The notes under the pieces are model-generated. The model was not told where the DNA came from and searched no databases. It worked only from the letters and a program-made list of their open reading frames with translations. Source: an uncultured Allorhizobium sp. (GTDB lineage Bacteria > Pseudomonadota > Alphaproteobacteria > Rhizobiales > Rhizobiaceae). From it: 64,000 bases of DNA. Position numbers and translations under genes: made by a program. Position 1 is the stretch's first letter, and the number at the start of each line of letters is the position of its first letter. Where the stretch lies: contig OY288189.1 of NCBI GenBank assembly GCA_958439205.1, positions 3,797,001 through 3,861,000 on the forward strand. Reading direction: 5' to 3'. Positions 33,901 to 47,712 of the stretch are shown here, in pieces.

Positions 33901-34647
33901 TCAGAGCAGGCTGTCGATGAGGGCCGACATGGAGTCAACCGACATGTCCCCCGAATAGGCCTTGCCATTGATCAGGAAGGTCGGGGTCGACTGAACTCCG
34001 AATTCCTCAGCACCGCGATCGCGGACTGCCGACACATCACCGGCAAGCTGGGCGTTCGTCAAGCAGGCGTCAAAGGTCTCCTGTGTAAAACCACCGAGCT
34101 TGGAAAGCTGCAGCATGGCGCCACGGACGTCGCCATCCGTCGGTGCCGCCCAGGTGCGCTGCTGCTTGAGCAGCATGGAGACGAAGGGGAAGAACTTGTC
34201 TTCGGTCGTGCAGCGGGCCAGCATGAAGGCGGCGAGCGAGGCGGTGTCCTGCGGGAACGGGAATTCGCGCAGCACGAAATAGACCTTGCCGGTGTCGACA
34301 TATTTGGTCTTGATCGCTTCGAAGGTGTTTTCGTGGAAATGCGCGCAGTGCGGGCAGGTCATCGACATGTATTCGATCACCTTGACCGGGGCGTTCGGGT
34401 CGCCGAGCGCCATTTCCTTCAGCGAGCCGGGCTTCAGGGCCGCTTCCATATCGACATCGCGGTCAGCGGTCAGGATCTCGGCAGAGGTGGTCGAGGCCGT
34501 GGTCTCGTTGCTGACGGCAGGCTGGGCTTCAGCGCTGGCGGCCTTGTCTTCAGCGTCGCTGCAGGCGGTGAGCGCGATGCCGACGGCGGCGATGGCGATG
34601 CCGCCGAGCAAACGGCGCTTGGTGATCGAGAGTTCGGAAGTCGACAT
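33901..34647 (-). CDS. DsbA-family thiol:disulfide lipoprotein
   Basis: 248 residues. Signal peptide with lipobox LTAC (Cys29), an Ala/Ser/Thr-rich linker, then a thioredoxin-fold domain with the CPHC active site (Cys98, Cys101) and the cis-Pro loop VQSTPTFLINGK near residue 218. It should oxidise or shuffle disulfides of exported proteins while anchored in a membrane. Normally found upstream of smc in Rhizobiaceae. The paired DUF721 gene lies 11 kb away, across the putative insert. Confidence 0.9.
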   Translation of the reverse strand: MSTSELSITKRRLLGGIAIAAVGIALTACSDAEDKAASAEAQPAVSNETTASTTSAEILTADRDVDMEAALKPGSLKEMALGDPNAPVKVIEYMSMTCPHCAHFHENTFEAIKTKYVDTGKVYFVLREFPFPQDTASLAAFMLARCTTEDKFFPFVSMLLKQQRTWAAPTDGDVRGAMLQLSKLGGFTQETFDACLTNAQLAGDVSAVRDRGAEEFGVQSTPTFLINGKAYSGDMSVDSMSALIDSLL

Positions 34648-35066: not shown

Positions 35067-36464
35067 ATGCTGTTGCCGAAGAGCCGGGGGATCTCACCCC
35101 TCCCCGCCTATAGTTTGAGCCTCGCGCTTGCCGCGCTCTGCCTGACCGTCACGACCGTTCCAGCCGCTGCCCAGCAGTCGCAGAACGTCGCGCCTCGGGC
35201 GGGAGCAACCTCGCTTGAGCAGATCGAAGCGCAGCGTAGCCAGCTCTTTGCGCGGATGATGGAGGCACCCGACGATCTCGACACGGCCTTCGAATATGCG
35301 GCTCTCTCGTCTCAGGCGGGCGATCTCGAGGGCGCGATTTCGACGCTGGAGCGCATGCTGATCTATGCGCCCGGCCTGCCCCGGCTGCAGCTCGAACTCG
35401 GTGTGCTCTACTACCGGCTCGGTGCCTATGAGACGGCGCGGCAATATTTCGACGGGGCGAAGGCTGCCGGCGATGTGCCGCCCGAGGTTGCCGCCAAGGT
35501 CGACCAGTATCTTGCCGCGATCGACCAGAAGAGTGATCCCTCGCAGTTCTCTGGCATGCTGCGCGCCGGTCTGCGCTATCAGAGCAATGCCAATGCCGGG
35601 CCGGGCAATTCCACCGTGACGCTGAACGGCCTTTCCTACACACTCGACAATCTGAGCGTTGCGGGCGAGGACTACAACGCCTTCGTCAACGGTGCCGTGC
35701 GCTATCGCCACGACACGGATATCCAGGGGCTTGCGCTGGAAGCCGGGATATCCGGCTATGCGGCGGGATATCGCGACCGCGACACGCTGAACACGGCGGC
35801 GGCCGAAGCCTATGCCGGACCCGTCTTCGATCTCGGCCGCTTCGGGCTGGACGACCGGTCGGTCTCCGTCATGCTCTTGACCAGCGGCGTCCTGATCGAG
35901 GGTGATCGTTATCTGGCCTCGGCCGGCATCTCGACCAATTTCGACTGGCAGGTGACGCCGGTCGACAGCCTCTCGGCGAGCCTGCAATATCGCTATGAGG
36001 ACTATTCCAACACCAAGTCGCGCAAGACGGCGGAGCTGCAGAGCGGCAACCGCTTCGATGCGCAAGTCTCCTGGTCGCACAATGTGACCGCAGATTTCAG
36101 CCTGACTGGCCGGCTGCTCGCCTCACGGCGGGATGCCGAGACGGGCTATCTCTCGTCCACCGAAGTGGGCGGCGCGATTTCGGGCACCTACCGCTATGCG
36201 GCGCTGATCGGCGATGGACCGGCCTGGATCATCGGGCTCGAAGCAGCCGTGGCAGGTCGCGGTTATGACGACCCGGACACCATGATCAATTCGGGCGAAA
36301 GCCAGCGCGACACGGACTTCAGCCTGAACCTCAAGCAGATCACGCCCTTTACCGAGCGCGTGGCGCTGGTCGCCGAGGCCGGCTACCGCAAGGTCTGGTC
36401 GAATTATGACATCAAGTCCTTCGACAACATCTCGGTGTCGATCGGCATCCAGTCGGCTTTCTAG
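35067..36464 (+). CDS. Slam-like TPR/outer-membrane barrel protein
   Basis: 465 residues. Signal peptide (SLALAALCLTVTTVPAAAQ), a TPR-like helical part (about 50-165, LELGVLYYRLGAYETARQYF and VDQYLAAID), then a beta-barrel region from about 175 on (GLRYQSNANAGPG) ending in aromatic F (SIGIQSAF). The order of TPR, the YLAAI turn, the (D/Q)SNxN strand and about 14 strands matches surface lipoprotein assembly modifiers (Slam, DUF560), which move TbpB-like proteins across the outer membrane. The gene right after encodes a protein with a TbpB-like end, supporting this. A plain outer-membrane porin-like protein is the alternative. Confidence 0.65.
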   Translation: MLLPKSRGISPLPAYSLSLALAALCLTVTTVPAAAQQSQNVAPRAGATSLEQIEAQRSQLFARMMEAPDDLDTAFEYAALSSQAGDLEGAISTLERMLIYAPGLPRLQLELGVLYYRLGAYETARQYFDGAKAAGDVPPEVAAKVDQYLAAIDQKSDPSQFSGMLRAGLRYQSNANAGPGNSTVTLNGLSYTLDNLSVAGEDYNAFVNGAVRYRHDTDIQGLALEAGISGYAAGYRDRDTLNTAAAEAYAGPVFDLGRFGLDDRSVSVMLLTSGVLIEGDRYLASAGISTNFDWQVTPVDSLSASLQYRYEDYSNTKSRKTAELQSGNRFDAQVSWSHNVTADFSLTGRLLASRRDAETGYLSSTEVGGAISGTYRYAALIGDGPAWIIGLEAAVAGRGYDDPDTMINSGESQRDTDFSLNLKQITPFTERVALVAEAGYRKVWSNYDIKSFDNISVSIGIQSAF

Positions 36465-36474
36465 GAGCATCACG

Positions 36475-39036
36475 ATGAAGACGAATACGCGTCATGCCCT
36501 GCTTTGCACCTCTGCCGCGCTCTTGATGCTCGCGGGGGCTCCGGCGCAAGCCGAGACTGACGTTGCCGGCGTGACTGCCGCCGTCAATCCGCAGGCAACG
36601 GCCTTTGATGCTTCAGGCAAGCCTCGCCTGATCTCGCTCGGCGATGCCGTGATCCGCAATCACCGGATCGAGACCAGCGGCGAAGGCCTGGTGCAGATCC
36701 TGTTGGCCGACGGGACATCGTTTACCGTCGGACCCAACTCCTCCGTGGTGATCGACAGCTTCGTCTACGATCCCGAGAAAAACACGGCCTCGCTGGCGGC
36801 CACCATGACCAAGGGCGCGCTGCGCTTCATCGGCGGCAAGGCCTCCAAGGCGAGCGGCAATGTAAAGATCGACACGCCGATCGGGACAGCCGGCATTCGT
36901 GGTGCCGTGGTCGACATCAATCTCAACGGCCAGACGGCGGACGGCCAGCCGCTGCCGCCGCATATGACGCTGGTCTATGGCAAGGAAGTGCAGCTGACCG
37001 GCCAGGGCGCGCCGCAGCGCCTGTTCAAACAGGGCTTCTCGATCGTCGCGGGCGATGGCCAGCCGCGCGTCCAGCGCACGCCGCCGCAATGGGTGAGCGG
37101 CCTGCAGCAGACCCTCGCCGGCCGCCCGGGCCAAGGTGGTGGCACCAACAACGCGCCGACCGACCAGACGGTTGCAAGCAGCACGGTCAGCCAAAGCAAC
37201 TCGGCGCAGCTGCCTTCGGAAAACTCGATCCCGGTGCCGCAACCGCGCCCGATCGTGACGACGCCGGTGGAAGAAGTGGCGGGAGAATCGCAGCGGGATG
37301 TGGGGCCGCGGCCGGAGGTGCCGGATGATGGCGAGGACGACGGTGACAGCGATGACGGTACCGCCGTTTCCGTTCTCTCACCGACAGTGGGCGCCGGCAG
37401 CGGAGCAATCGGAGGATCGAGCGGCGTCAGGCTGGAACAGTCACGCGGTACGCTGACCCGCAATGCCGACGGCACTCTGACAGGCAGCGACGGCGCCGGA
37501 AATGACTTTACGCTCCCGGCGTTGTCGTCGGCCACCGTATTGACCGAGCAGCTCGTGACAGGCGAGGTCAATGGGACAGCGGTGAACGGAACCGCCTATA
37601 CCGGCAGCGGCGGGTTCTTCACATACATGGTGAAAGCACAGATCGCAGATCCGCAAGCCTTCTATGTCGTCGGCGGCACGCCTGCCGATGCGCAGGAAAC
37701 GCTCTCAAGCGGGGAGATCATGTCCTACGTGCTTGAACCGGATCTGCTTGCTGCACTCATGAATGGTGACGGTCAGACAATTCCATTTACCGGAAGCTTC
37801 ATCGGCAGCGAAGACGCTGTGGTCAGCGACCTCCTTGTGAGCGGCGTAACCACGACGAGCGGTGGCGCCGTCGGTCGTGCCCTGCAGGCTTCGCTTGTCA
37901 TCAGCGGCACGGGTTCCGGGCAGACGAGTGCCATCAATGTCATGAGCGGCGTTTTTAAACCGGCCTCGGGTGGCGGCTACGGCATGACCGGATCGACAGC
38001 CGGATCAAGCCGGAGCGATGCAGAAGACGATGCAGGTCACATTCAGGGGCTTACTGCAAGTATTGGCAGCACCGCAGGCGAGGATCACTTCCTCGGGGCC
38101 GACGGGGAGTATCTGGTCGTTGCTTCGGGATCGATGGGGACAAGGGAGTTCGGGGAACCGGCTCCGGAGTTCGACGGGTACGAACAGGTCCATGTCGCCA
38201 GCCGTGATGACAGCATCTCGACCGACGGGCAAAAACGACTGAGCGACCAAACGTTGGGCTTCACTTCGGGCATTGTCGAGGAGTTTGGAGGTGAGAGGCT
38301 GTTTACCGGTCGGGTCACCATTACGCCGGACGCCGATTCCGGCACCTTCGACGGACGGTTCACATCGAATGGCGGCGACGAGTACGCCGATTTCTACTCG
38401 GACGATGCAAATTCCTCGTATCTTTCCGACCAGCTGATAGCGGCCACGAACCAGGAGCAAGGCTCCTATATGGTTTCCTCGGCTGCAGTACCGGCCAAGA
38501 TCTTCGACGGGGGCTCGTCGAGCCAGATCTGCAATGCCTGCGACTTCATGACCTGGGGCTGGTGGGGCCGCAACAGCGTCGGCGAGGTAGACTACAAAGT
38601 GCATCTCGGCAACTGGATCATCGGGGTCAGGCCGGAGAACATGGATGTTCCGACAACTGGGACTGCGACATACAACGGCCATGCAGTCGGTACGGTGTTG
38701 AATGACGGCGCACAGTACATCGCCACCGGCCAAATGATTTCGACAATGAATTTCGCCAGTCGAAGCGGAACGGTCTCCGTCACGGGCTTTGACGGACGTG
38801 ACTTCTCGACCAGCGTCGGTTTCGAAAATGGGGGCGTGCGCACGGCAACTTTCAATGGGAGCAGTTCCGGCAGCATCGACATGACAGTGAGCGGTGCATT
38901 CGCACAGGGTCCGGGTGGCGCCGATATGCCGCCCGACCCCGTCAAAGGCATCATGGGCAACTTCACCGCCAACGATAATGCTGGCTGGTCCTCCACCGGC
39001 ATCTTCGCCGGGAGCACCACGGGCGTAACCCAGTGA
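36475..39036 (+). CDS. Secreted FecR-domain protein with TbpB-like C-terminal barrel
   Basis: 853 residues from ATG 36475, with AGGAG upstream. Signal peptide without lipobox (LLMLAGAPAQA). A FecR-type domain covers about 45-165 (LADGTSFTVGPNSSVVIDSF, TPIGTAGIRG). A Pro/Asp-rich linker follows (about 200-300). The long Gly/Ser-rich C-terminal part ends in a repeat pattern like the TbpB beta-barrel (TATYNGHAVGTV, YIATGQMISTMNFASRSGTV, GSIDMTVSGAF, IMGNF). FecR domains outside the FecI system are ligand- or polymer-sensing modules. It probably leaves the cell through the Slam-like protein; this is inference. Confidence 0.65.
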   Translation: MKTNTRHALLCTSAALLMLAGAPAQAETDVAGVTAAVNPQATAFDASGKPRLISLGDAVIRNHRIETSGEGLVQILLADGTSFTVGPNSSVVIDSFVYDPEKNTASLAATMTKGALRFIGGKASKASGNVKIDTPIGTAGIRGAVVDINLNGQTADGQPLPPHMTLVYGKEVQLTGQGAPQRLFKQGFSIVAGDGQPRVQRTPPQWVSGLQQTLAGRPGQGGGTNNAPTDQTVASSTVSQSNSAQLPSENSIPVPQPRPIVTTPVEEVAGESQRDVGPRPEVPDDGEDDGDSDDGTAVSVLSPTVGAGSGAIGGSSGVRLEQSRGTLTRNADGTLTGSDGAGNDFTLPALSSATVLTEQLVTGEVNGTAVNGTAYTGSGGFFTYMVKAQIADPQAFYVVGGTPADAQETLSSGEIMSYVLEPDLLAALMNGDGQTIPFTGSFIGSEDAVVSDLLVSGVTTTSGGAVGRALQASLVISGTGSGQTSAINVMSGVFKPASGGGYGMTGSTAGSSRSDAEDDAGHIQGLTASIGSTAGEDHFLGADGEYLVVASGSMGTREFGEPAPEFDGYEQVHVASRDDSISTDGQKRLSDQTLGFTSGIVEEFGGERLFTGRVTITPDADSGTFDGRFTSNGGDEYADFYSDDANSSYLSDQLIAATNQEQGSYMVSSAAVPAKIFDGGSSSQICNACDFMTWGWWGRNSVGEVDYKVHLGNWIIGVRPENMDVPTTGTATYNGHAVGTVLNDGAQYIATGQMISTMNFASRSGTVSVTGFDGRDFSTSVGFENGGVRTATFNGSSSGSIDMTVSGAFAQGPGGADMPPDPVKGIMGNFTANDNAGWSSTGIFAGSTTGVTQ

Positions 39037-41264
39037 CAGCGGACGCGCCGGGGCGCCCGACGTCGGCCAAGGCCCCCAGCCCGCGCCATCGCCTGTCCTC
39101 CTCGCAGCGGCGCAAGCTCGGTGTGATGCTGATGGGGGTGGCCGCACTCGTCGCGGTCATCACGGCGCATGCGGCCTTTGCTCCCCAGGCCTTCCGGCTG
39201 ACTTCGCTGGTGTTCGATACCTATCAGACCATCAAGCCGCGTGACGCGACCGATCCGCCGGTTGCGGTCATCGATATCGACGAAGCCTCGATCGGCACGC
39301 TCGGGCAATGGCCCTGGTCGCGCCGGACGGTGGCGGAGATCGTCACACGGGCAAGCGGGCTGGGAGCCGCGGCAATCGGCTTCGACATCGTGTTTTCCGA
39401 ACCGGACAGAACGGCACCTGCGCGGCTGGTCGAGGAGATGCGGCGCCAGGGGATTGCCATCGAGGTCGGCCCCGATCTTCCGGATCCGGATGCCCAATTG
39501 GCAGACGCCGTTGCCGCAAATGCCGTGGCGCTCGGGATCGCGCTCACCAACGAGACGTCGGCGCCGGCCCCTGAACCAAAGGCCGGCTTCTCCTTTGTCG
39601 GGCCGGATCCGCAGGCGCGGCTTTCGCCCTATTCCGGCGCGCTCTCCAATCTTCCCCTGCTCAACGAGCGGGCGACGGCGATGGGCTATTTCTCCTTTCC
39701 GCCGACGCCCGACAACATCATCCGCACCTTTCCGCTGATCTCAAAAAGCGGCAACAGGCTCTATCCAGCGCTGTCGATCGAGACGCTGCGGATTGCCCAG
39801 CAGGCGGGGTCCTTCGTCCTGCGCTCGGCCGGCACGGCAGAGGGCTCGGCGATGACGGACTTGAGGGTCGGCGCGCTCGACATTCCCGTTTCCGCCGATG
39901 GCGAGATCTGGATCTACTATTCCGGCCTGCCGAACATGCCGATGATTTCGGCAGCCGATCTCTTCGATCCCGCCAAGGCAGCGACACTGATGGGCCAGAT
40001 CCAGGGACGAATTCTGCTGGTCGGCACCAGTGCGGTGGGCCTGCGCGATATCGTGGCGACGCCCGTCGATCCGGCCATGGCGGGTGTTAAGGTGCATGCC
40101 GAGATCATCGACCAGATCGCGAGCGGCGTCTTCCTGCAGCGTCCGGACTGGATTGTCGGTGCGGAGCGGGCAGCGGCCATTGCCGTCGGGCTTGTGCTGC
40201 TGCTGGTGCTGGCGACCGCCACGCCTGCCCTTTCGGTAATCGTCGCGTTGATGCTTGGCAGCCTCGTTGGCGGTGGCTCGTGGCTTGCCTTCTCTCAGGC
40301 CTTGACGCTCTTCGATCCGCTGTTGCCGCTGGCGAGCCTCGGCGCGGTGCTGCTCACGGCCCTGCCGCTCCTCCTGATGCTCACCCACCGCGAAAAGCGC
40401 TTCGTGCGCGAAAGCTTCGGGCGCTATCTTTCGCCGACGCTGGTCGAACGGCTCTCGGAAAACCCGGAGGGCCTCACACTCGGCGGTGAGGACCGGGAGC
40501 TTACCATCCTGTTCTCCGACATCCGCGGCTTCACCACGCTGTCGGAAAAGCTGACCCCGACCGAACTCACCGGGCTTCTCAACAACTTCCTGACGCCGAT
40601 GACCGACGTGCTTTTGCAGCGCGAGGCGACGATCGACAAATATATCGGCGATGCGGTCATGGCCTTCTGGAATGCGCCGCTCGACATTGCCGATCATCCG
40701 CAAAAGGCCTGCCTTGCCGCGCTCGATATGGTCTCGGCGCTGGAACGGCTCAACCGCGAAAGCGGCATGGCGCTGAAGATCGGCATCGGGCTCAACACCG
40801 GCATGGCCTGTGTCGGCAATCTCGGTTCCGACCAGCGCTTCAGCTATTCCTGCCTCGGCGACAGCGTCAATCTCGCCTCGCGCGTCGAGGGCATGAGCAA
40901 GCTCTACGATGTCTCGATCCTGGTGACCGAAGATGTCCGATCACGAACGACAGGCCTGCTGTTTGCCGAAGTCGACCGGGTGCGCGTGGTCGGACGGCAG
41001 GCGCCGGTGACGCTGCATGCGCTGGTGGGGGCTCCAGAGAACACCGGTGGTGGGCAGACCGAGCTGCTCGAACGGCACAGGAGCTTCCTTGCCGCCTGGC
41101 AGGCCGGCGATCTGGGCGTGGCCCGCGAGCACTTGAAGTTGCTCCAGGCCCTGCCGCAGAATCCACTTTCCGGCACGCATAAGCTCTATCAGGAGCGCCT
41201 TGAGACGCTGCCTGAGACGGCGCCGGAAGGTTGGGATGGCGTGTTCACGGCCAATACCAAGTAG
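39033..41264 (+). CDS. CHASE2-domain adenylate/guanylate cyclase
   Basis: 743 residues, GTG start overlapping the previous stop (GTGA). An N-terminal membrane helix (about 30-50) leads to a periplasmic CHASE2 sensor (about 55-365, VAVIDIDEASIGTLGQWPW). Three membrane helices (about 370-455) precede a class III cyclase domain (about 475-655). Both metal Asp residues are present (FSDIRGFT and IGDAVMAFW), as are the purine-recognising Lys (DKYIGD) and Asp (CLGDSVNLASR) typical of ATP use, and the transition-state Asn/Arg in NLASR. So it should make cAMP in response to an envelope signal. Confidence 0.9.
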   Translation: MTADAPGRPTSAKAPSPRHRLSSSQRRKLGVMLMGVAALVAVITAHAAFAPQAFRLTSLVFDTYQTIKPRDATDPPVAVIDIDEASIGTLGQWPWSRRTVAEIVTRASGLGAAAIGFDIVFSEPDRTAPARLVEEMRRQGIAIEVGPDLPDPDAQLADAVAANAVALGIALTNETSAPAPEPKAGFSFVGPDPQARLSPYSGALSNLPLLNERATAMGYFSFPPTPDNIIRTFPLISKSGNRLYPALSIETLRIAQQAGSFVLRSAGTAEGSAMTDLRVGALDIPVSADGEIWIYYSGLPNMPMISAADLFDPAKAATLMGQIQGRILLVGTSAVGLRDIVATPVDPAMAGVKVHAEIIDQIASGVFLQRPDWIVGAERAAAIAVGLVLLLVLATATPALSVIVALMLGSLVGGGSWLAFSQALTLFDPLLPLASLGAVLLTALPLLLMLTHREKRFVRESFGRYLSPTLVERLSENPEGLTLGGEDRELTILFSDIRGFTTLSEKLTPTELTGLLNNFLTPMTDVLLQREATIDKYIGDAVMAFWNAPLDIADHPQKACLAALDMVSALERLNRESGMALKIGIGLNTGMACVGNLGSDQRFSYSCLGDSVNLASRVEGMSKLYDVSILVTEDVRSRTTGLLFAEVDRVRVVGRQAPVTLHALVGAPENTGGGQTELLERHRSFLAAWQAGDLGVAREHLKLLQALPQNPLSGTHKLYQERLETLPETAPEGWDGVFTANTK

Positions 41265-41271
41265 CTCGCCT

Positions 41272-43545
41272 TCACTCGTGCAGTGCCTGGACCACCCGGT
41301 TGGCGATGGTGAGCCGTTCGGCAAGCGTGGTGGCGCAGAGGCGGTGGACGAGAAGCGCCAGTTCCGGATCTGATTGTTCGAGATAACGCAATTGCCGGCG
41401 GGCAAGGCGGTAGACGGTCGAGGGCACTTCGGCCACCACGTCTGCCGTGCGCGGACCGCCGCGGTAGATGGCGATCTCGCCCAAGACGACGCCGGGTTTG
41501 ACCGTGCGCAGGCGCAGGCGTTTGCCGTTTCCGAGCACGGCTTCGACCTTGGCTCGACCGGTCCAGAGCAGGAAGAGATCGTCGCCGGCCTCGCCTGCCC
41601 GGATGAAGCGATCGCCGTGCTGGAGGCGGATTTCCTGCATGGAGGCGACGAGATCCTTGAGCCTCGTGCTCGGGCCGATGGTCTGGGCCAGATAGTCCTC
41701 GACATCCTGCCAGGTTTCTTCGCGGGCGATTTCGCCGAGCAGTCGCTGTTCGCAGTACTCGATGGCGTGATCGAGATCAGGCTCGAACCGCGTGGTGGGG
41801 TCGCCCTGCCCGTCGAGACCATTGCGGCGGAGCGTGGCCTCGGCTTGCGGCGTGAGGCCGCTCAACAGCAATTCGGCGTCCTCCGTGGCGAGGAGATTGC
41901 GGATCTTGACGAAGGCGGCAGCAGCGGCGGTGTCCATGCCGCTCACCCGACGGAAATCGAGGACGGCGAAACGCAGTTTCGGGCGGGCGGTATCCTTCAG
42001 GCGGCTGCGCACAATTGCCACCACCTGTTCTGCCGTGCCGAAAAACAGAAATTCCTGGAGTTCGAGAACCTGGACCTGATCGCCTTCAGCTTCCAGTCTG
42101 TCGTTTTCGACCAGTGGACGGTCGATGCTGCTGCGGCGGATGCGGAGTGATGTGTCGCTCCGGATGACCGAAAGACGGGCATAGTTATAGACGAAGGAGA
42201 GGATGGCGAGACCAAGCCCCATCATCATCCCGGTCAGGAAGCCGAAAGCGAGCATGCCGGCGGGGATGGTCAGCACCACCAGCCATTCATTGCGCGGCAG
42301 TTGACGGCGGGCGCCCCAGAGCCATTCCTCCGCCATGTCATAACCGAGCGTGATCATCAGACCGGCGGCAACGAAGGTCGGCATGGCACCGGCAAGCTGT
42401 CCGGCAAACGGCAGCATCAGCACCAGAACCAGCGTGGTGGCAAAGCCCGGCAGGCGGCTCGCGCCGCCCATCCGGGTTGCGAGCAGGGTCATGCTCATGC
42501 TGCTGAAGCCCGGCGCGCCGCCAAAGCCTCCGGCAAGCAGGTTGGCGAGGCCCGTGGTGCGCAGTTCCGAATCCGCATCGATCTCGCGGCGGGTGGCGAC
42601 CTCCTGGCCGCTCGTGTTGAGGAGAAGTCCGACCATGCTCAGAAGAACCACCGAGGCGATGGCCGGCGCGGCATGGGCCACGGCAGACCAGTCGGCCTGC
42701 CACAAGATCGACAAGGGAGACGGCAGTTCCAGCCCCGTCTGGAGTGGCAGCGCCGGCAGCCAGTGGAAGGCGCGTGCGGCCTCCGGATCGATGCCAAGCA
42801 CGGACAAAAGCCCATAGAACAGCAGGGCTGCGGCGATCATGATCCCGGGTGCGATCAGCGGGCTGGAGGATCGCCTGAGCGAGAAGTTCAGGATGAAGGC
42901 GAAGATCAGCGCGATATGCAGATTGGCGAAGGCCTGGCGACCATCCACCGTGGCAAACAGGTCTGATATCGTATGGGCTCCGAGCAGCATGTTCACCGCC
43001 CCCTGGATCATCAGGCAGCCGGAGCCGGCGAGAAATCCAGCGATGACCGAGAAGGGCATGAAGCGCACCAGGCGGCCAAAGCCGAAGGCGCCTGAGACCA
43101 CAAAAACGAGACCGGTTGCGACGGCGCTCGTGCCGAGAATGGCAAAGGCGGTCATGATGCGGACCTCATCCGGCGCGTCCAGCAGCGTCGGAGAGGCGAG
43201 TGCCACGGCAATCGCGGCTGCAAGGATCGCGACATTTGGCTTTCGAACCTGGCCGATGCTGGCCGGGTAGCGGCTGCCGATGGTGATCACGAAAGTGAGC
43301 AGGATGCTGGACATGAGGATGGCGCCGACCCCCATGCCGAAACCGGCGGAGACCGAGCCGGTAAAGATGAGAGCGGCAAAGGCAATGCTGGTGCCCAGAC
43401 CGTCAATGCCGGCGATCACCGCAAAGAGCAGTGGCGCGAGGAGCGCGGTGACCGTTGCCGGGCGCAGACGACCGGAGGACACTGGATGTGTGCCACCCGG
43501 CAGTGCAGCCGGTTGTGGCGATAGGGGGGTGTCCTGCAGGCTCAC
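41272..43545 (-). CDS. SulP-family transporter with STAS and cyclic-nucleotide-binding domains (copy 1)
   Basis: 757 residues, GTG start 16 bases after copy 2. The order is: SulP membrane domain with 10-12 helices (about 35-450, IAGIDGLGTSIAFAALIFTG, LRTTGLANLLAGGFGGAPG), STAS domain (about 490-590, LDFRRVSGMDTAAAAA), and C-terminal cNMP-binding domain (about 630-745) with phosphate-cassette LGEIAIYRGGPRTADV. SulP proteins carry sulfate, bicarbonate, dicarboxylates or other anions. It converges on the cyclase gene with only seven bases between, so cAMP control by that enzyme is a natural guess. Substrate unknown. Confidence 0.88.
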   Translation of the reverse strand: MSLQDTPLSPQPAALPGGTHPVSSGRLRPATVTALLAPLLFAVIAGIDGLGTSIAFAALIFTGSVSAGFGMGVGAILMSSILLTFVITIGSRYPASIGQVRKPNVAILAAAIAVALASPTLLDAPDEVRIMTAFAILGTSAVATGLVFVVSGAFGFGRLVRFMPFSVIAGFLAGSGCLMIQGAVNMLLGAHTISDLFATVDGRQAFANLHIALIFAFILNFSLRRSSSPLIAPGIMIAAALLFYGLLSVLGIDPEAARAFHWLPALPLQTGLELPSPLSILWQADWSAVAHAAPAIASVVLLSMVGLLLNTSGQEVATRREIDADSELRTTGLANLLAGGFGGAPGFSSMSMTLLATRMGGASRLPGFATTLVLVLMLPFAGQLAGAMPTFVAAGLMITLGYDMAEEWLWGARRQLPRNEWLVVLTIPAGMLAFGFLTGMMMGLGLAILSFVYNYARLSVIRSDTSLRIRRSSIDRPLVENDRLEAEGDQVQVLELQEFLFFGTAEQVVAIVRSRLKDTARPKLRFAVLDFRRVSGMDTAAAAAFVKIRNLLATEDAELLLSGLTPQAEATLRRNGLDGQGDPTTRFEPDLDHAIEYCEQRLLGEIAREETWQDVEDYLAQTIGPSTRLKDLVASMQEIRLQHGDRFIRAGEAGDDLFLLWTGRAKVEAVLGNGKRLRLRTVKPGVVLGEIAIYRGGPRTADVVAEVPSTVYRLARRQLRYLEQSDPELALLVHRLCATTLAERLTIANRVVQALHE
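41275..41616 (-). repeat. Near-identical C-terminal segment shared by the two SulP genes (copy 1)
   Basis: These bases encode the last 114 residues of copy 1 (from GDRFIRAGEA to ALHE), identical in protein to copy 2 at 43565-43906. At DNA level I count about 17 differences in roughly 340 bases, far fewer than in the membrane domains. This points to local gene conversion or selection holding the domain constant. Confidence 0.85.
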
Positions 43546-43561
43546 GGTCCGTCCGATCCTG

Positions 43562-45832
43562 TCACTCGTGCAGTGCCTGGACCACCCGGTTGGCGATCGT
43601 CAGGCGTTCGGCAAGCGTGGTGGCGCAGAGGCGGTGGACGAGAAGCGCCAGTTCCGGATCTGACTGTTCGAGATAACGCAACTGCCGGCGGGCAAGGCGG
43701 TAGACGGTCGAGGGCACCTCGGCCACCACGTCTGCCGTGCGCGGACCGCCGCGGTAGATGGCAATCTCGCCCAAGACGACGCCGGGTTTGACCGTGCGAA
43801 GACGCAGGCGTTTGCCGTTGCCGAGCACGGCTTCGACCTTGGCCCGGCCGGTCCAGAGCAGGAAGAGATCGTCGCCGGCCTCGCCTGCCCGGATGAAACG
43901 GTCACCGGGCTGCAGACGGATTTCCTCCATCGAGGCGACCAGATCCTTCAACCGTGCACTCGGACCGATGGTCTGGACAAAATAGTCCTCGATATCCTGC
44001 CATGTCTCCTCGCGGGCGATGGCCGCGATCAGTCGTTCCTCGCAGCGCTCCAGCGCATGGTCGAGGTCGCGTTCTCGCCCGACGGAGGGGTCGGTGGAGA
44101 AATCAATGCCGTTTCTCGCCAGGGCCTGCTCGATATCCGGTGATAGACTGCTGAAGATCAGTTCCACCTCGCTTCCTGCAAGCAGGTTGCGGATCTTGAC
44201 GAAAGTGGCGGCAGCAGCGGCATCCATGCCGCTCACGCGGCGGAAGTCGATGACCACAAAGCGGAGCGACAGGCGGGTTCGATCCAGCAAACGCTGGCGG
44301 ATCGCCTCGACCACCTGTTCGGCGGTGCCGAAGAAGAGGAATTCCTGCAGCTCCAGCACCTGGACCTGCTCGCCTTCGAGCTCGATCAGGCTGTTTTCTG
44401 CCGGCGGCCGATCGATGCTGCTTTTGCGCTCGCGCAGCGAGGCATTGACGCGGATGACCGAGAGGCGGGCATAATTATAAACGAAAGTAACGATGGAGAG
44501 GCCGAGGCCGAGCGCCATGCCACCCATGAAACCGAAGGCGGCCATGCCGAGCGGAATGGCGAGCACGACCAGCCACTCCATGCGCGGTAACTGCCGGCGC
44601 GTGCGCCAAAGCCAGTCGTGGATCAGCTCGACACCGAGCGCAACCATCAGGCCGGCGGCGACGAAGGTCGGCATGGCACCGGCGAGTTCGCCGGCAAAGG
44701 GCAGCATCATTGCCAGCATCAGGGCGGTCGCGACGCCGACGGAGCGGGCCTTCGCCCCCATGCGGTTGGCGAGCAGGGTCATGGAAAGCCCGGTGAACCC
44801 GGGGGCGCCGCCGAAGCCGCCGGCAACCAGGTTGGCCATACCGGTGGTGCGCAGTTCCGCATCCGCATCGATCTCCTGGCGCGTGGCGACTTCCAGCCCG
44901 CTGGTGTTGAGCAGGAGGCCGACCATGCCGAGAAGCGCCACGGAGATGATTGCGGGCAAGGCCTGCAGGACGACCGCCCAATCCGCCGTCATGACGACGT
45001 GGGCCGGTTGCGGGAGGGCAAAACCGCCGCCAGGTGGCAGGGCGGGCAGCCATTGCATGGTGCGAGCCTGGTCGCTGTCGACGCCGATAACGGCCAGCAT
45101 GGCATAGAACAGCAGACCACCGCCGAGCAGGACCAGCGGCATGGTGAGCGGGCTTGTCGAGCGGCGCAGGGCAAAGACCATCACCACCGCGAAAACGACG
45201 GATACATAGAGGTTGGCGAGCGCCTGCTGGCCATCCGGTCGGACCAGAAGGTCGACGATGGCGCGGTCGCCGACGACCATCATCACGGCACCCTGGATCA
45301 AGAGCCAGCCGGAGCCAGCGAGAAAACCGGCGACCACCGGATAAGGCATGAAACGCACGAGGCGGCCGAAGCGGCAGAGGCCGAAGATCCAGAAGACGAG
45401 GCCAGTGACCACGGCACTGGAGCCCAGGATGGCAAATGCCGTGGCGACCTTGACCTCCTGCGGGGCAAATTCCAGATGGGCAGCGCTCGCCGCGATCGCT
45501 GTGGCCAGGATGGCGATGCTGGCTTCCTGCACCTGACCGATGCTGGAAGGATAGCGGCTGCGCAGCGCAATCCAGAGCGCCATGACGATGCTCGACAGGA
45601 GGATGACGCCGACGCCCATGCCGAAGCCGGCCGCAAGCGGGCCCGCAAAGATCAGTGCGGCGAAGGCGATGCTGGTGCCAAGGCCATCAATGCCGGCAAT
45701 GACGGCGAAGAGCACAGGCGCCATGACGGGTGCAGATATGCCCGGGACCGGGAAACGCCATCCCTGCCGCTGTGGGACGGCAGCGATCGCGCTTTTGCGA
45801 TCCGGGATGGGCGTCGGATTGTGGAGGTTCAC
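43562..45832 (-). CDS. SulP-family transporter with STAS and cyclic-nucleotide-binding domains (copy 2)
   Basis: About 756 residues from GTG 45832 (AGGAAAAG upstream), which makes its length match copy 1; the open frame continues upstream to 45967 without good coding signs. Same architecture: SulP membrane domain (PVLFAVIAGIDGLG), STAS domain (VIDFRRVSGMDAAAAATF) and cNMP-binding domain identical to copy 1 at its end. Membrane and STAS parts differ clearly from copy 1, so the two may carry different anions under the same nucleotide control. It is the first gene of a two-gene operon. Confidence 0.88.
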   Translation of the reverse strand: MNLHNPTPIPDRKSAIAAVPQRQGWRFPVPGISAPVMAPVLFAVIAGIDGLGTSIAFAALIFAGPLAAGFGMGVGVILLSSIVMALWIALRSRYPSSIGQVQEASIAILATAIAASAAHLEFAPQEVKVATAFAILGSSAVVTGLVFWIFGLCRFGRLVRFMPYPVVAGFLAGSGWLLIQGAVMMVVGDRAIVDLLVRPDGQQALANLYVSVVFAVVMVFALRRSTSPLTMPLVLLGGGLLFYAMLAVIGVDSDQARTMQWLPALPPGGGFALPQPAHVVMTADWAVVLQALPAIISVALLGMVGLLLNTSGLEVATRQEIDADAELRTTGMANLVAGGFGGAPGFTGLSMTLLANRMGAKARSVGVATALMLAMMLPFAGELAGAMPTFVAAGLMVALGVELIHDWLWRTRRQLPRMEWLVVLAIPLGMAAFGFMGGMALGLGLSIVTFVYNYARLSVIRVNASLRERKSSIDRPPAENSLIELEGEQVQVLELQEFLFFGTAEQVVEAIRQRLLDRTRLSLRFVVIDFRRVSGMDAAAAATFVKIRNLLAGSEVELIFSSLSPDIEQALARNGIDFSTDPSVGRERDLDHALERCEERLIAAIAREETWQDIEDYFVQTIGPSARLKDLVASMEEIRLQPGDRFIRAGEAGDDLFLLWTGRAKVEAVLGNGKRLRLRTVKPGVVLGEIAIYRGGPRTADVVAEVPSTVYRLARRQLRYLEQSDPELALLVHRLCATTLAERLTIANRVVQALHE
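43565..43906 (-). repeat. Near-identical C-terminal segment shared by the two SulP genes (copy 2)
   Basis: Direct-repeat partner of 41275-41616, encoding the same 114 C-terminal residues. Recombination between the two could delete or fuse the genes, since they are tandem and in the same orientation. Confidence 0.85.
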
Positions 45833-46031: not shown

Positions 46032-46523
46032 CTATTTGCGCTTGGCCTGCAGGACGGCTGTGCCGAGACGCTCGACGGCGCGGCGGAGATTCTCGTTCTC
46101 GATTCCGTCCATCATCGCTTCCAGCCGCTTTGCCTTTTCGCCTTCGAGTTTCCTGATCTTCGGCCTGACACTCGCGTTCGAAACCGGTTTCTGGACGATG
46201 CGGACCTGGCCGATGGCGGGATAGCCGAAGAAGCCATTGATGCGAGCGATCAGCTCGCCCTGGGCATGGGAGAGGAAAAGCGCGCGGGCACCCTCGCAGG
46301 CAATCGTCAACACGCCGGGGCGGTGGCCGCCATCCTCGGGCAGGTCCGAGCGGCGCGGCCAGGCGATCTTTTCCGGCCGGGTGCAATCGGCAAAGTTTTC
46401 GCCAACAATGTCTTCCCAGGAGCCGAGCAGCGCCGTGTTGATTCCCGCACGGCGCACCAGCACGGGATCGACGATCCCGTTGGCGATGTCGGCAATCTGG
46501 TTTGCGCCCTTGAAGGTGGCCAT
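46032..46523 (-). CDS. DUF721 (DciA-like) protein
   Basis: 163 residues from ATG 46523. The DUF721 core is visible: LLGSWEDIVGENFADCTRPEKI, then GVLTIACEGARALFLSHAQGELIARIN. Related proteins (DciA) help load the replicative helicase; in rhizobia the gene sits between mutY (divergent) and dsbA. The C-terminal tail is Lys/Arg/Glu-rich. The divergent mutY start is 82 bases away, so they share a control region. Confidence 0.82.
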   Translation of the reverse strand: MATFKGANQIADIANGIVDPVLVRRAGINTALLGSWEDIVGENFADCTRPEKIAWPRRSDLPEDGGHRPGVLTIACEGARALFLSHAQGELIARINGFFGYPAIGQVRIVQKPVSNASVRPKIRKLEGEKAKRLEAMMDGIENENLRRAVERLGTAVLQAKRK

Positions 46524-46605
46524 TGCGTCTGGGGATCCTTCACATCGGCCCTTGAACGGGCGACTGCTTTGGCCAGATATAGGCCATCTCGCCCTCTTTT
46601 CGCAA

Positions 46606-47712
46606 ATGACCGATTTGACGCTCCCCAGCAAAGCCCTGACACGACCGACGGCGCCCGCACTGCTTGCCTGGTATGACCGGCATCACCGCGAGTTGCCCTG
46701 GCGCATTTCGCCCTCAGCGGCGAAGCGCGGCGTGACGCCGGATCCCTATTACATCTGGATGTCCGAGGTGATGCTGCAGCAGACGACGGTTGCAGCAGTG
46801 AAGGCCTATTTCGCCAAGTTCATTGCCCGCTGGCCGACGGTCACGGATCTGGCCGATGCACCGAACGAAGATGTCATGGCCGCCTGGGCTGGGCTCGGCT
46901 ACTACGCCCGCGCCCGTAACCTGAAGAAATGTGCCGAGGCCGTGGCCTTTGAGCATGGCGGTGTCTTTCCCGATACTGAAGAAGGCCTGCGCGCGCTTCC
47001 CGGCATTGGCGACTATACGTCTGCCGCGGTTGCGGCGATTGCCTTCAACCGGCCATCCGCTGTCATGGACGGGAATGTCGAGCGGGTGATCTCGCGGCTC
47101 TTTGCCATCGAGGCGCCGCTTCCGGGATCCAAGCCGCAGATGAAGGCGAAGGTGGCGGAACTCACGCCGACCGACCGGCCGGGGGACTTTGCCCAGGCGA
47201 TGATGGATCTAGGGGCTACGATCTGCACCCCGAAGCGGCCGGCCTGCGCGCTCTGTCCGTTCAACGATGCCTGTCTGGCGCTGGCCACAGATGAGCCTGA
47301 GCGTTTCCCGGTCAAGGCCGCCAAGAAGGCGAAGCAGGTGCGGCTTGGAGCTGCCTTCATCGCTGTTGATCGCGAGGGGCGGCTTCTGCTGCGCAAGCGG
47401 GTGGAAAGCGGCCTGCTGGGTGGCATGACCGAGGTGCCGACGACCGAGTGGACTTCGCGGCAGGACGGGGAGACCGGGACAGACGCAGCCCCCTTCCCGG
47501 CCAACTGGCAGGCAGCGGGCAGCATCTCCCATGTCTTCACGCATTTCGAGCTCAGGCTCTCGATCTTTCGCGTCGGGCCGATCGACCGTCCATCTGGTAA
47601 TCACGGTTTCTGGGTGCCGGTCACCGAACTTGATGGGGAAGCGCTGCCCACTGTCATGAAGAAGGCAATTGCAGCCGCTATTCCAACCGCCTTTCCAACA
47701 GCCAAGGGCTAA
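46606..47712 (+). CDS. mutY: Adenine DNA glycosylase MutY
   Basis: 368 residues from ATG 46606. Catalytic N-terminal domain with LPWR, SEVMLQQTTV, the helix-hairpin-helix LPGIGDYTSAAVAAIAF and the 4Fe-4S cluster Cys residues in CTPKRPACALCPFNDAC. The C-terminal NUDIX-like domain (about 240-360, LLLRKRVESGLLGGM) recognises 8-oxoguanine. It removes A paired with 8-oxoG to prevent G:C to T:A changes. The HAD gene follows by three bases, so they are probably co-transcribed. Confidence 0.95.
   Translation: MTDLTLPSKALTRPTAPALLAWYDRHHRELPWRISPSAAKRGVTPDPYYIWMSEVMLQQTTVAAVKAYFAKFIARWPTVTDLADAPNEDVMAAWAGLGYYARARNLKKCAEAVAFEHGGVFPDTEEGLRALPGIGDYTSAAVAAIAFNRPSAVMDGNVERVISRLFAIEAPLPGSKPQMKAKVAELTPTDRPGDFAQAMMDLGATICTPKRPACALCPFNDACLALATDEPERFPVKAAKKAKQVRLGAAFIAVDREGRLLLRKRVESGLLGGMTEVPTTEWTSRQDGETGTDAAPFPANWQAAGSISHVFTHFELRLSIFRVGPIDRPSGNHGFWVPVTELDGEALPTVMKKAIAAAIPTAFPTAKG

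Follow-up and report, generated by a model that had tools for sequence, protein, structure and literature searches.

In a 64,000-nucleotide stretch of DNA from an uncultured Allorhizobium sp. (contig OY288189.1, positions 3,797,001 to 3,861,000; the whole stretch is called the window), three genes for an outer-membrane protein, an exported FecR-domain protein and a CHASE2 adenylate cyclase face two genes for SulP transporters which end in cyclic-nucleotide-binding (cNMP) domains. The five-gene block is an insertion between the genes dciA and dsbA. The arrangement is real, is conserved within the genus, and is repeated in two other arrangements. The plus-strand trio may be an envelope-spanning sensor which makes cyclic AMP (cAMP) and has the facing SulP genes as its direct targets, a proposal for which belief and doubt are evenly balanced. 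Judged from sequence, direct gating of SulP by cAMP is the best-supported reading, and direct wiring from trio to SulP seems plausible and, as far as searched, new.

The block and its borders contain the following features.

35067-36464, plus strand: outer-membrane protein with a signal region, periplasmic TPR and a C-terminal 14-stranded beta-barrel, Slam/T11SS-like (T11SS, type 11 secretion system; Pfam TPR_19 above cut-off)
36475-39036, plus strand: FecR-domain protein (Pfam FecR), exported, whose C-terminus is an 8-stranded barrel like those of TbpB, NHBA and hemophilin
39033-41264, plus strand: CHASE2 class III adenylate cyclase (Pfam CHASE2 and Guanylate_cyc)
41272-43545, minus strand: SulP2, with SulP core, STAS and C-terminal cNMP domain (Pfam, all three domains above cut-off)
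43562-45832, minus strand, frame open to 45967: SulP1, with SulP core, STAS and C-terminal cNMP domain (Pfam)
41272-41673, minus strand: 3' end of SulP2 (cNMP domain), near-identical to SulP1 43562-43963 (paralog alignment)
33901-34647, minus strand: dsbA-like gene that bounds the insertion on the left; the block-free genomes inspected have it no more than 1.2 kb from dciA
46032-46631, minus strand: dciA, right border of the inserted block (Pfam DciA, 46.3 bits)

An earlier note on this DNA had described five adjacent genes with these domains. The list of open reading frames (ORFs) in the window and a Pfam scan bear this out, with all of the expected domains above their cut-offs, and the block recurs at one site in 18 genomes of the genus. 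The gap between the barrel gene and the FecR gene is 10 nt, and the FecR stop codon overlaps the GTG start of the cyclase as GTGA at 39033-39036, as the note had read it. SulP1 stands 16 nt upstream of SulP2 on the minus strand, and 7 nt separate the SulP2 stop (41272) from the cyclase stop (41264). This spacing was also given correctly. The SulP pair is convergent with the trio on the opposite strand, so there are at least two transcription units, and a single five-gene operon is ruled out. The FecR gene most likely starts at 36475 rather than at the first ATG of its ORF at 36406. The start of SulP1 is most likely the GTG at 45832, because many relatives align with the long ORF only from about residues 42-46 onwards. 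The five genes take up the whole stretch from dsbA to dciA, and none of them is a phosphodiesterase by Pfam. A scan for promoters and terminators gave nothing above shuffled sequence.

A sample of 63 genomes from the genus was used to evaluate conservation, with the cyclase called at E <= 1e-100 and SulP at E <= 1e-60. The cyclase was found in 25 genomes and SulP in 20. All 20 SulP genomes have the cyclase, and none has SulP without it (Fisher 4e-12, for observations which are not independent, the genes being linked by descent). SulP adjoins the cyclase at dciA/dsbA in 18 of the 20, and has another arrangement in two (G201 and G208). Fourteen of the 18 adjacent cases were read as loci or as the window, and four (G151, G181, G187, G190) were taken from coordinates alone. 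Two SulP copies are present in seven genomes. The cyclase is absent at E 1e-100 from 38 of the 63 genomes, and dsbA was found in 37 of those 38. In the block-free genomes that were inspected, dciA and dsbA always lie within 1.2 kb of each other (20/20), with none of the five genes between them. Among 21 cyclase-positive loci, the window included, 18 hold the whole trio between dciA and dsbA; the locus of G189 ends at a contig edge inside the FecR gene, and G201 and G208 have the trio elsewhere.

The order SulP, cyclase, FecR, Slam-like gene was also found between dciA and dsbA in 12 of 12 loci from named organisms. These are titled Rhizobium, Agrobacterium, Peteryoungia or 'Rhizobiales bacterium', and include R. 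rosettiformans, Peteryoungia aggregata, R. wuzhouense and Agrobacterium albertimagni. The 12 loci (L049-L060) were dropped as additional genomes because 9 of them are genomes already in the genus sample, at least 93% of their sampled 60-mers being found again in its loci.

A sulfide:quinone reductase-like gene lies between the Slam-like gene and dsbA in seven loci from five genomes (L051 18838-20142, for example; two pairs of loci come from one genome each) and is absent from the window. It scores 221 bits to NF049943, whose cut-off is 525. As a neighbour, it gives a hint of sulfur anions.

Both SulP copies score over the Pfam cut-offs for Sulfate_transp, STAS and cNMP_binding. Their cNMP domains contain GE...R[TS]A, which we take to be the phosphate-binding cassette for a cyclic nucleotide; the pocket motif of SulP2 reads GEIAIYRGGPRTA, and that of SulP1 is intact too. 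The pocket GE[IV]..Y.....RTA, or a close form of it, is present in 33 of the 33 cyclase-linked SulP frames extracted, duplicates included, a count which omits four further linked SulP genes whose match crossed a stop upstream of the likely start. Sequence matches to SulP1 in the PDB are the cNMP domains of PKG, PKA and SthK, and the plant sulfate transporter 4.1. The linked SulPs that were placed in a tree form one clade (support 100/99), sister to the unlinked L041 and L042. TIGR00815, the sulP subfamily model, gives 114 and 113 bits for the two copies and its cut-off of 380 is not reached, and the NCBIfam sulP, DauA and BicA models match in part and far below cut-off (BicA 66-67 bits versus 880). 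Therefore no substrate was assigned, and the two proteins belong to a divergent SulP branch.

The cNMP domain is also where the two copies agree best. The last 133 residues of SulP1 and SulP2 are 98% identical in amino acids and 93% in nucleotides, and the cores are 62% identical in amino acids. In all seven genomes with two SulPs, the paralogs resemble each other most in the cNMP domain, at 72-98% amino acid identity, with 56-67% for the STAS/linker and 60-64% for the core; in the window and G175 it reaches 98% in amino acids and 93-95% in nucleotides. The near-identical ends are probably the result of recent gene conversion, and the two transporters keep one homogenised switch on diverged cores.

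More distant SulPs were taken from a class sample of 385 genomes, with SulP in 16 and CHASE2 in 186, the source genome included in both. Nine of the 15 distant SulPs keep the pocket GE...R, and all nine of their genomes have CHASE2. The pocket is broken in the other six, by His for Arg in two and by loss of the motif in four, and CHASE2 is present in two of the six genomes concerned. The association of an intact pocket with CHASE2 (Fisher P 0.011) is post hoc, and the four lost motifs are one clade.

The cyclase scores 178.6 bits for CHASE2 and 88.5 bits for Guanylate_cyc, both above cut-off. Aligned with CyaB, its motifs FSDIRGFT, IDKYIGD and YSCLGDSVNLASR hold the usual class III catalytic residues, presumably the metal-binding Asp pair, the base-selecting Lys and the Asn and Arg transition-state residues. 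Its closest PDB matches are adenylate cyclases, CyaB among them. Taken together, the motifs suggest that the cyclase probably makes cAMP. A second CHASE2 protein is present in the same genome outside the window (G000:C1:4156532-4157311).

AlphaFold2 was used to predict the structure of the barrel protein from 13 sequences. The model, of moderate confidence (mean predicted local distance difference test, pLDDT, 69), has six TPR-like helices followed by 14 long strands. Foldseek gave BcsC, a TPR-barrel protein, as the top match by E-value, and the 14-strand CymA and OmpG among the best template modelling (TM) scores; a PDB sequence search gave weak matches, mostly to TPR. Together, Pfam and the model indicate that the N-terminal TPR and 14-stranded barrel of Slam/type 11 outer-membrane proteins are present. 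The Pfam model DUF560 (PF04575) was not among the matches listed for the protein up to E 10, and for this reason the protein is called T11SS-like by architecture only. The term 'Slam-like' in the earlier note is not borne out by DUF560, but is by the 14 strands with TPR and by the cargo-like barrel of the neighbour. The barrel/FecR pair thus appears T11SS-like by architecture and not a member by sequence.

The FecR protein scores 35.5 bits for Pfam FecR (cut-off 24). Its N-terminus reads as a Sec signal peptide without a lipobox; its Cys 11 is replaced by Ala in the relatives' consensus. The slam_lipo model NF041636 gives 29.4 bits, under its cut-off of 80, and a PDB sequence search gave a weak match, an antifreeze protein. 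The AlphaFold2 model is poor (pLDDT 37) and only the C-terminal barrel is usable, with 8 strands at residues 730-848. Foldseek matches this barrel to NHBA (E 4e-5), and more weakly to the TbpB C-lobe, HpuA and hemophilin; we take NHBA and HpuA to be Slam/type-11 cargo. TbpB, fHbp and hemophilin are such cargo according to the available excerpts of PMC8406197 and PMC12282271. A TbpB-type 8-strand C-terminal barrel beside the Slam-like gene was found by Foldseek, with sequence hidden Markov models below cut-off. Ahead of the barrel, C686 and C689 ('CNAC') are invariant in 13 sequences, and the pair is possibly a redox or metal site.

The pairing of these genes was followed in a family sample of 151 genomes, source genome included. 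Strong Slam-like matches were found in 10 of them, with FecR adjoining in 10/10 and the cyclase in 8/10; the cyclase lies across two contig ends in G020 (counted as adjacent), is 68 kb off in G023, and is cut off by a contig end in G066. Weaker Slam-like matches in G019, G039 and G121 have a different arrangement, with the cyclase divergent from Slam-FecR in G019 and G039.

These results lead us to suspect the following mechanism. At the outer membrane, the T11SS/Slam-like barrel would handle the barrel in which the FecR protein ends, and the state of the pair would signal either a ligand outside the cell or the condition of the cell surface. The periplasmic FecR domain may contact the CHASE2 domain and set cyclase activity, as the conserved gene pair suggests. 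The cyclase, whose catalytic residues are in place, would then produce cAMP, which may bind the intact pockets of SulP1 and SulP2 and turn anion transport on or off with no transcription factor in between. The same cAMP may also act on CRP-type regulators encoded at other places in the genome. SulP would be an optional effector of a sensor that elsewhere sometimes adjoins other cNMP-domain proteins.

Several observations weigh against direct wiring of the trio to SulP. Of the 25 cyclase-positive genus genomes, 5 keep an intact trio and lack SulP. Three of these (G153, G161, G173) have no tblastn match at 1e-8, G167 has 31 codons left, and G196 has fragments; remnants lie beside an intact trio at L065 10316-10408 and L067 8651-9151. 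An intact trio after SulP loss implies that the trio has other work. At the nine Slam-FecR loci of other genera, seven of which have the cyclase adjacent, no SulP or other cNMP gene was found in the stretches read, one of which is 6 kb long. SulP-cNMP is present in 5 of the 151 family genomes, source included, and in the other four no cyclase was found near SulP within stretches of 12.7-19 kb. All four do have a full-length CHASE2 cyclase elsewhere, as do 40 of 150 genomes (P 0.0045; the 40 were compiled by hand at E below 1e-130). Co-occurrence of SulP and CHASE2 is weak in the class sample (11/15 versus 174/369, P 0.06), and tblastn found no cyclase, FecR or Slam-like gene near the 15 distant SulPs in stretches of 8-19.5 kb. 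The earlier note's expectation that the five families co-occur is upheld to the extent that trio and SulP are together in 20/20 SulP genomes of the genus, in three local arrangements. A fixed or universal five-gene module is contradicted by the trios without SulP, two of them with SulP remnants, and by the family sample, which lacks SulP near the Slam-like gene in 9 of 10 genomes and has four SulPs without a cyclase nearby.

CHASE2 cyclases were also examined for other cNMP-domain neighbours. From the top-scoring CHASE2 matches among the matches listed, 60 stretches (57 genomes) were picked by hand, blind to neighbours; the first 40 were mostly one per family and clear of contig ends. FecR lies within 5 kb of the cyclase in 33 neighbourhoods, a Slam-like gene in 19, and both in 18. 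Within 5 kb there are eight cNMP genes in 7 of the 60 neighbourhoods, where 1.40 were expected (P 1e-4 if a Poisson distribution holds), and within 2 kb five were observed versus 0.57 expected. Observed genes were called with a home-made profile built from SulP domains and one cyc_nuc_ocin-type protein. The expectation came from whole-genome PF00027 counts of 40 genomes, with their mean used for 18 stretches of uncounted genomes. No cNMP gene lies within 5 kb in the other 53 neighbourhoods, a further point against general direct wiring, and cNMP genes beside CHASE2 cyclases are a minority pattern. The neighbours, identified by Pfam, are these.

L156 6188-7882: type II NADH dehydrogenase (NDH-2) with C-terminal cNMP domain, 36 nt after the CHASE2 cyclase in a Slam-FecR-cyclase-NDH-2 row
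L157 7636-8940 and L167 11279-12535: cNMP-EAL protein beside the CHASE2 cyclase, 19 nt and 11 nt apart
L146: cNMP-DUF1003 protein near the CHASE2 cyclase
L134 (twice), L136 and L152: CRP types near the CHASE2 cyclase

The cNMP-EAL genes may possibly mean cross-talk from cAMP to cyclic di-GMP. On plasmid pAMI5 of Paracoccus aminophilus, a cNMP and patatin-like phospholipase gene (L195 3224-5050) is divergent from a TPR-FecR-CHASE2 cyclase row, whose cyclase is 55% identical. Judging from the relatives, sensors of this kind sometimes seem to be coupled straight to one or another protein switched by cAMP. A broader reading, in which a type-11 pair has turned sensor and the cAMP of the CHASE2 cyclase is used on the spot by an adjacent cNMP effector, is possible but tentative.

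Where bacterial cAMP circuits are best known, they lead to transcription factors of the CRP type. The trio might signal mainly through CRP-family factors, as CyaD1, CyaD2 and CyaK do through Clr in S. meliloti; the SulP pair, with no coupling of its own to the trio, would then use bulk cAMP or be a transcriptional target. We regard this as possible, though rather doubtful. It would explain why the trio is retained after SulP loss. The source genome (G000) has 11 cNMP matches, so there are others beyond the two SulPs, three neighbourhoods (L134, L136, L152) have CRP-type genes close to the cyclase, and the Clr pathway is published (excerpts of PMC5498481). However, the home-made profile found no third cNMP gene in the whole window, and SulP has its own intact pocket and never occurs without a CHASE2 cyclase in the genus sample.

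It is unlikely that SulP and trio are two unrelated cargoes which entered dciA/dsbA together and were inherited as an island. The short dciA-dsbA interval in all 20 block-free genomes inspected and the sulfide:quinone reductase-like gene received by the same slot (seven loci, five genomes) are consistent with such hitch-hiking, but at other sites SulPs of this clade are also found close to CHASE2 cyclases, in two further arrangements. In the three arrangements SulP is convergent with the trio at dciA/dsbA, divergent from it about 4 kb upstream (G201, G208 and the Shinella plasmid), or some 2 kb away from a cyclase that belongs to a distant lineage (Ensifer plasmid).

In G201 and G208, two ABC-type genes precede SulP, which is divergent from the trio and about 4 kb upstream of it. 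A plasmid search gave three records with SulP-cNMP at E 1e-60, from Shinella, Ensifer and Gloeothece. Plasmid p1 of Shinella sp. H4-D48 has the order of G208, with the trio followed by the NHLP genes HlyD, ABC1 and ABC2, and C39, ABC and SulP divergent. Loci of this kind, with trio, NHLP genes and a divergent C39/ABC/SulP-cNMP row, are L061, L062, L111, L112 and L194 (G208, G201 and Shinella). HlyD and ABC1 follow the trio in all three, and ABC2 was read in G208 and Shinella. A cNMP gene also lies near the NHLP genes in G208 and G201; in G208 the exporter is followed by a cNMP protein near cyc_nuc_ocin (146 bits, cut-off 161) and then a DUF3307 protein. On a plasmid of Ensifer sp. PDNC004, some 2 kb separate SulP from a CHASE2 cyclase; genes for a short TPR protein, FecR and NHLP components run divergently from that cyclase. 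A quick tree search places the Ensifer cyclase in a different lineage, and the neighbourhood may have outlasted a change of cyclase or arisen anew. The plasmid of the cyanobacterium Gloeothece has no cyclase among the annotated neighbours of SulP-cNMP within 8 kb. At the S. meliloti pSymB cyclase locus, a FecR gene adjoins the cyclase, with no match to the Slam-like protein or SulP.

SulP-cNMP could originally have been part of an NHLP-type peptide exporter controlled by the trio, with the window block a remnant without exporter, but this seems quite unlikely. The sister loci do hold trio and SulP-cNMP with genes like those of NHLP/NHLM export operons that encode cyc_nuc_ocin proteins. HlyD and ABC1 come after the trio in G201, G208 and Shinella, where SulP sits behind two further ABC-type genes, and in Ensifer the NHLP genes, FecR and SulP share one cluster. 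TIGR03796 is over cut-off in seven genus genomes, six of them cyclase-positive, and four of those six (G175, G176, G181, G197) have the exporter elsewhere in the genome. Against this, the source genome has no TIGR03796 match at E 1e-100, and the model is over cut-off in 4 of the 18 adjacent-block genomes. That SulP instead imports bicarbonate or another anion which tunes the cyclase, making the transporter the input, the cyclase the output and the cNMP domain a feedback, is very unlikely, since no SulP-family cut-off is reached and the substrate is unassigned, even though class IIIb cyclases of such type respond to bicarbonate, the cyclase has Lys and Ser at its presumed base-recognition positions (the Ser aligns with a Thr of CyaB), and SulP matches BicA in part.

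The trio itself is of a known kind. Available excerpts of PMC9239204 describe clusters of CHASE2 cyclase, phosphodiesterase, FecR and TPR in Campylobacterota. Those clusters have a cAMP phosphodiesterase, and the window block has none; the block has SulP and a type-11-like barrel, which the excerpts do not mention. In S. meliloti the outer-membrane barrel NsrA and CHASE2 cyclases act with Clr (excerpts of PMC5498481, PMC7529298 and PMC13001267). Compared by description, the NsrA - CyaK/CyaD1/CyaD2 - Clr system is like the block in that an outer-membrane beta-barrel feeds inner-membrane CHASE2 cyclases. It is unlike the block in its output through Clr and its barrel at residues 600-1200 of NsrA, and SulP is not mentioned in the excerpts. 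According to the same sources, S. meliloti smc02177 has a FecR domain, neighbours smc02178, which lies near cyaD1, and is dispensable for plant-signal perception.

In Slam/type 11 systems, as in the block, a TPR protein with a 14-strand barrel is encoded next to an exported protein whose N-terminus varies and whose C-terminus is an 8-strand barrel (excerpts of PMC8406197 and PMC12282271). The window differs in that its barrel lacks a DUF560 match and its cargo-like protein contains a FecR domain and has a cyclase as its partner; the word 'FecR' is absent from both papers, and 'cyclase' from PMC12282271. The transporters are like other SulP (SLC26-type) proteins in having Sulfate_transp and STAS, and unlike them in being divergent and linked to a cyclase gene. 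For fungi, a figure legend in the excerpts of PMC5541321 gives a SulP/STAS protein that has a cyclic-nucleotide domain, and no paper on a bacterial SulP with such a domain was found in the open-licence full-text literature; two candidates, PMC8638967 and PMC5131308, are unrelated. The earlier note knew of no described system with this set. This stands for the bacterial SulP link as far as searched, but not for the trio, given the excerpts of PMC9239204, PMC7529298 and PMC13001267. What is new is the SulP link, the T11SS-like head, and the finding that a minority of CHASE2 cyclases adjoin cNMP-domain proteins of various kinds.

A conserved sensor-cyclase unit therefore stands repeatedly beside proteins which cAMP could switch directly, anion transporters among them. 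The sensor reading proposes a signalling role for type-11-like outer-membrane pairs, which are described as secretion devices in the excerpts of PMC8406197 and PMC12282271. If it is true, the output would be SulP in this block and, at other loci, NDH-2, an EAL phosphodiesterase, a patatin lipase, a peptide exporter or a CRP regulator. Alphaproteobacteria would then have a general scheme of cAMP wiring which for the most part does without transcription and in which one output can be exchanged for another.

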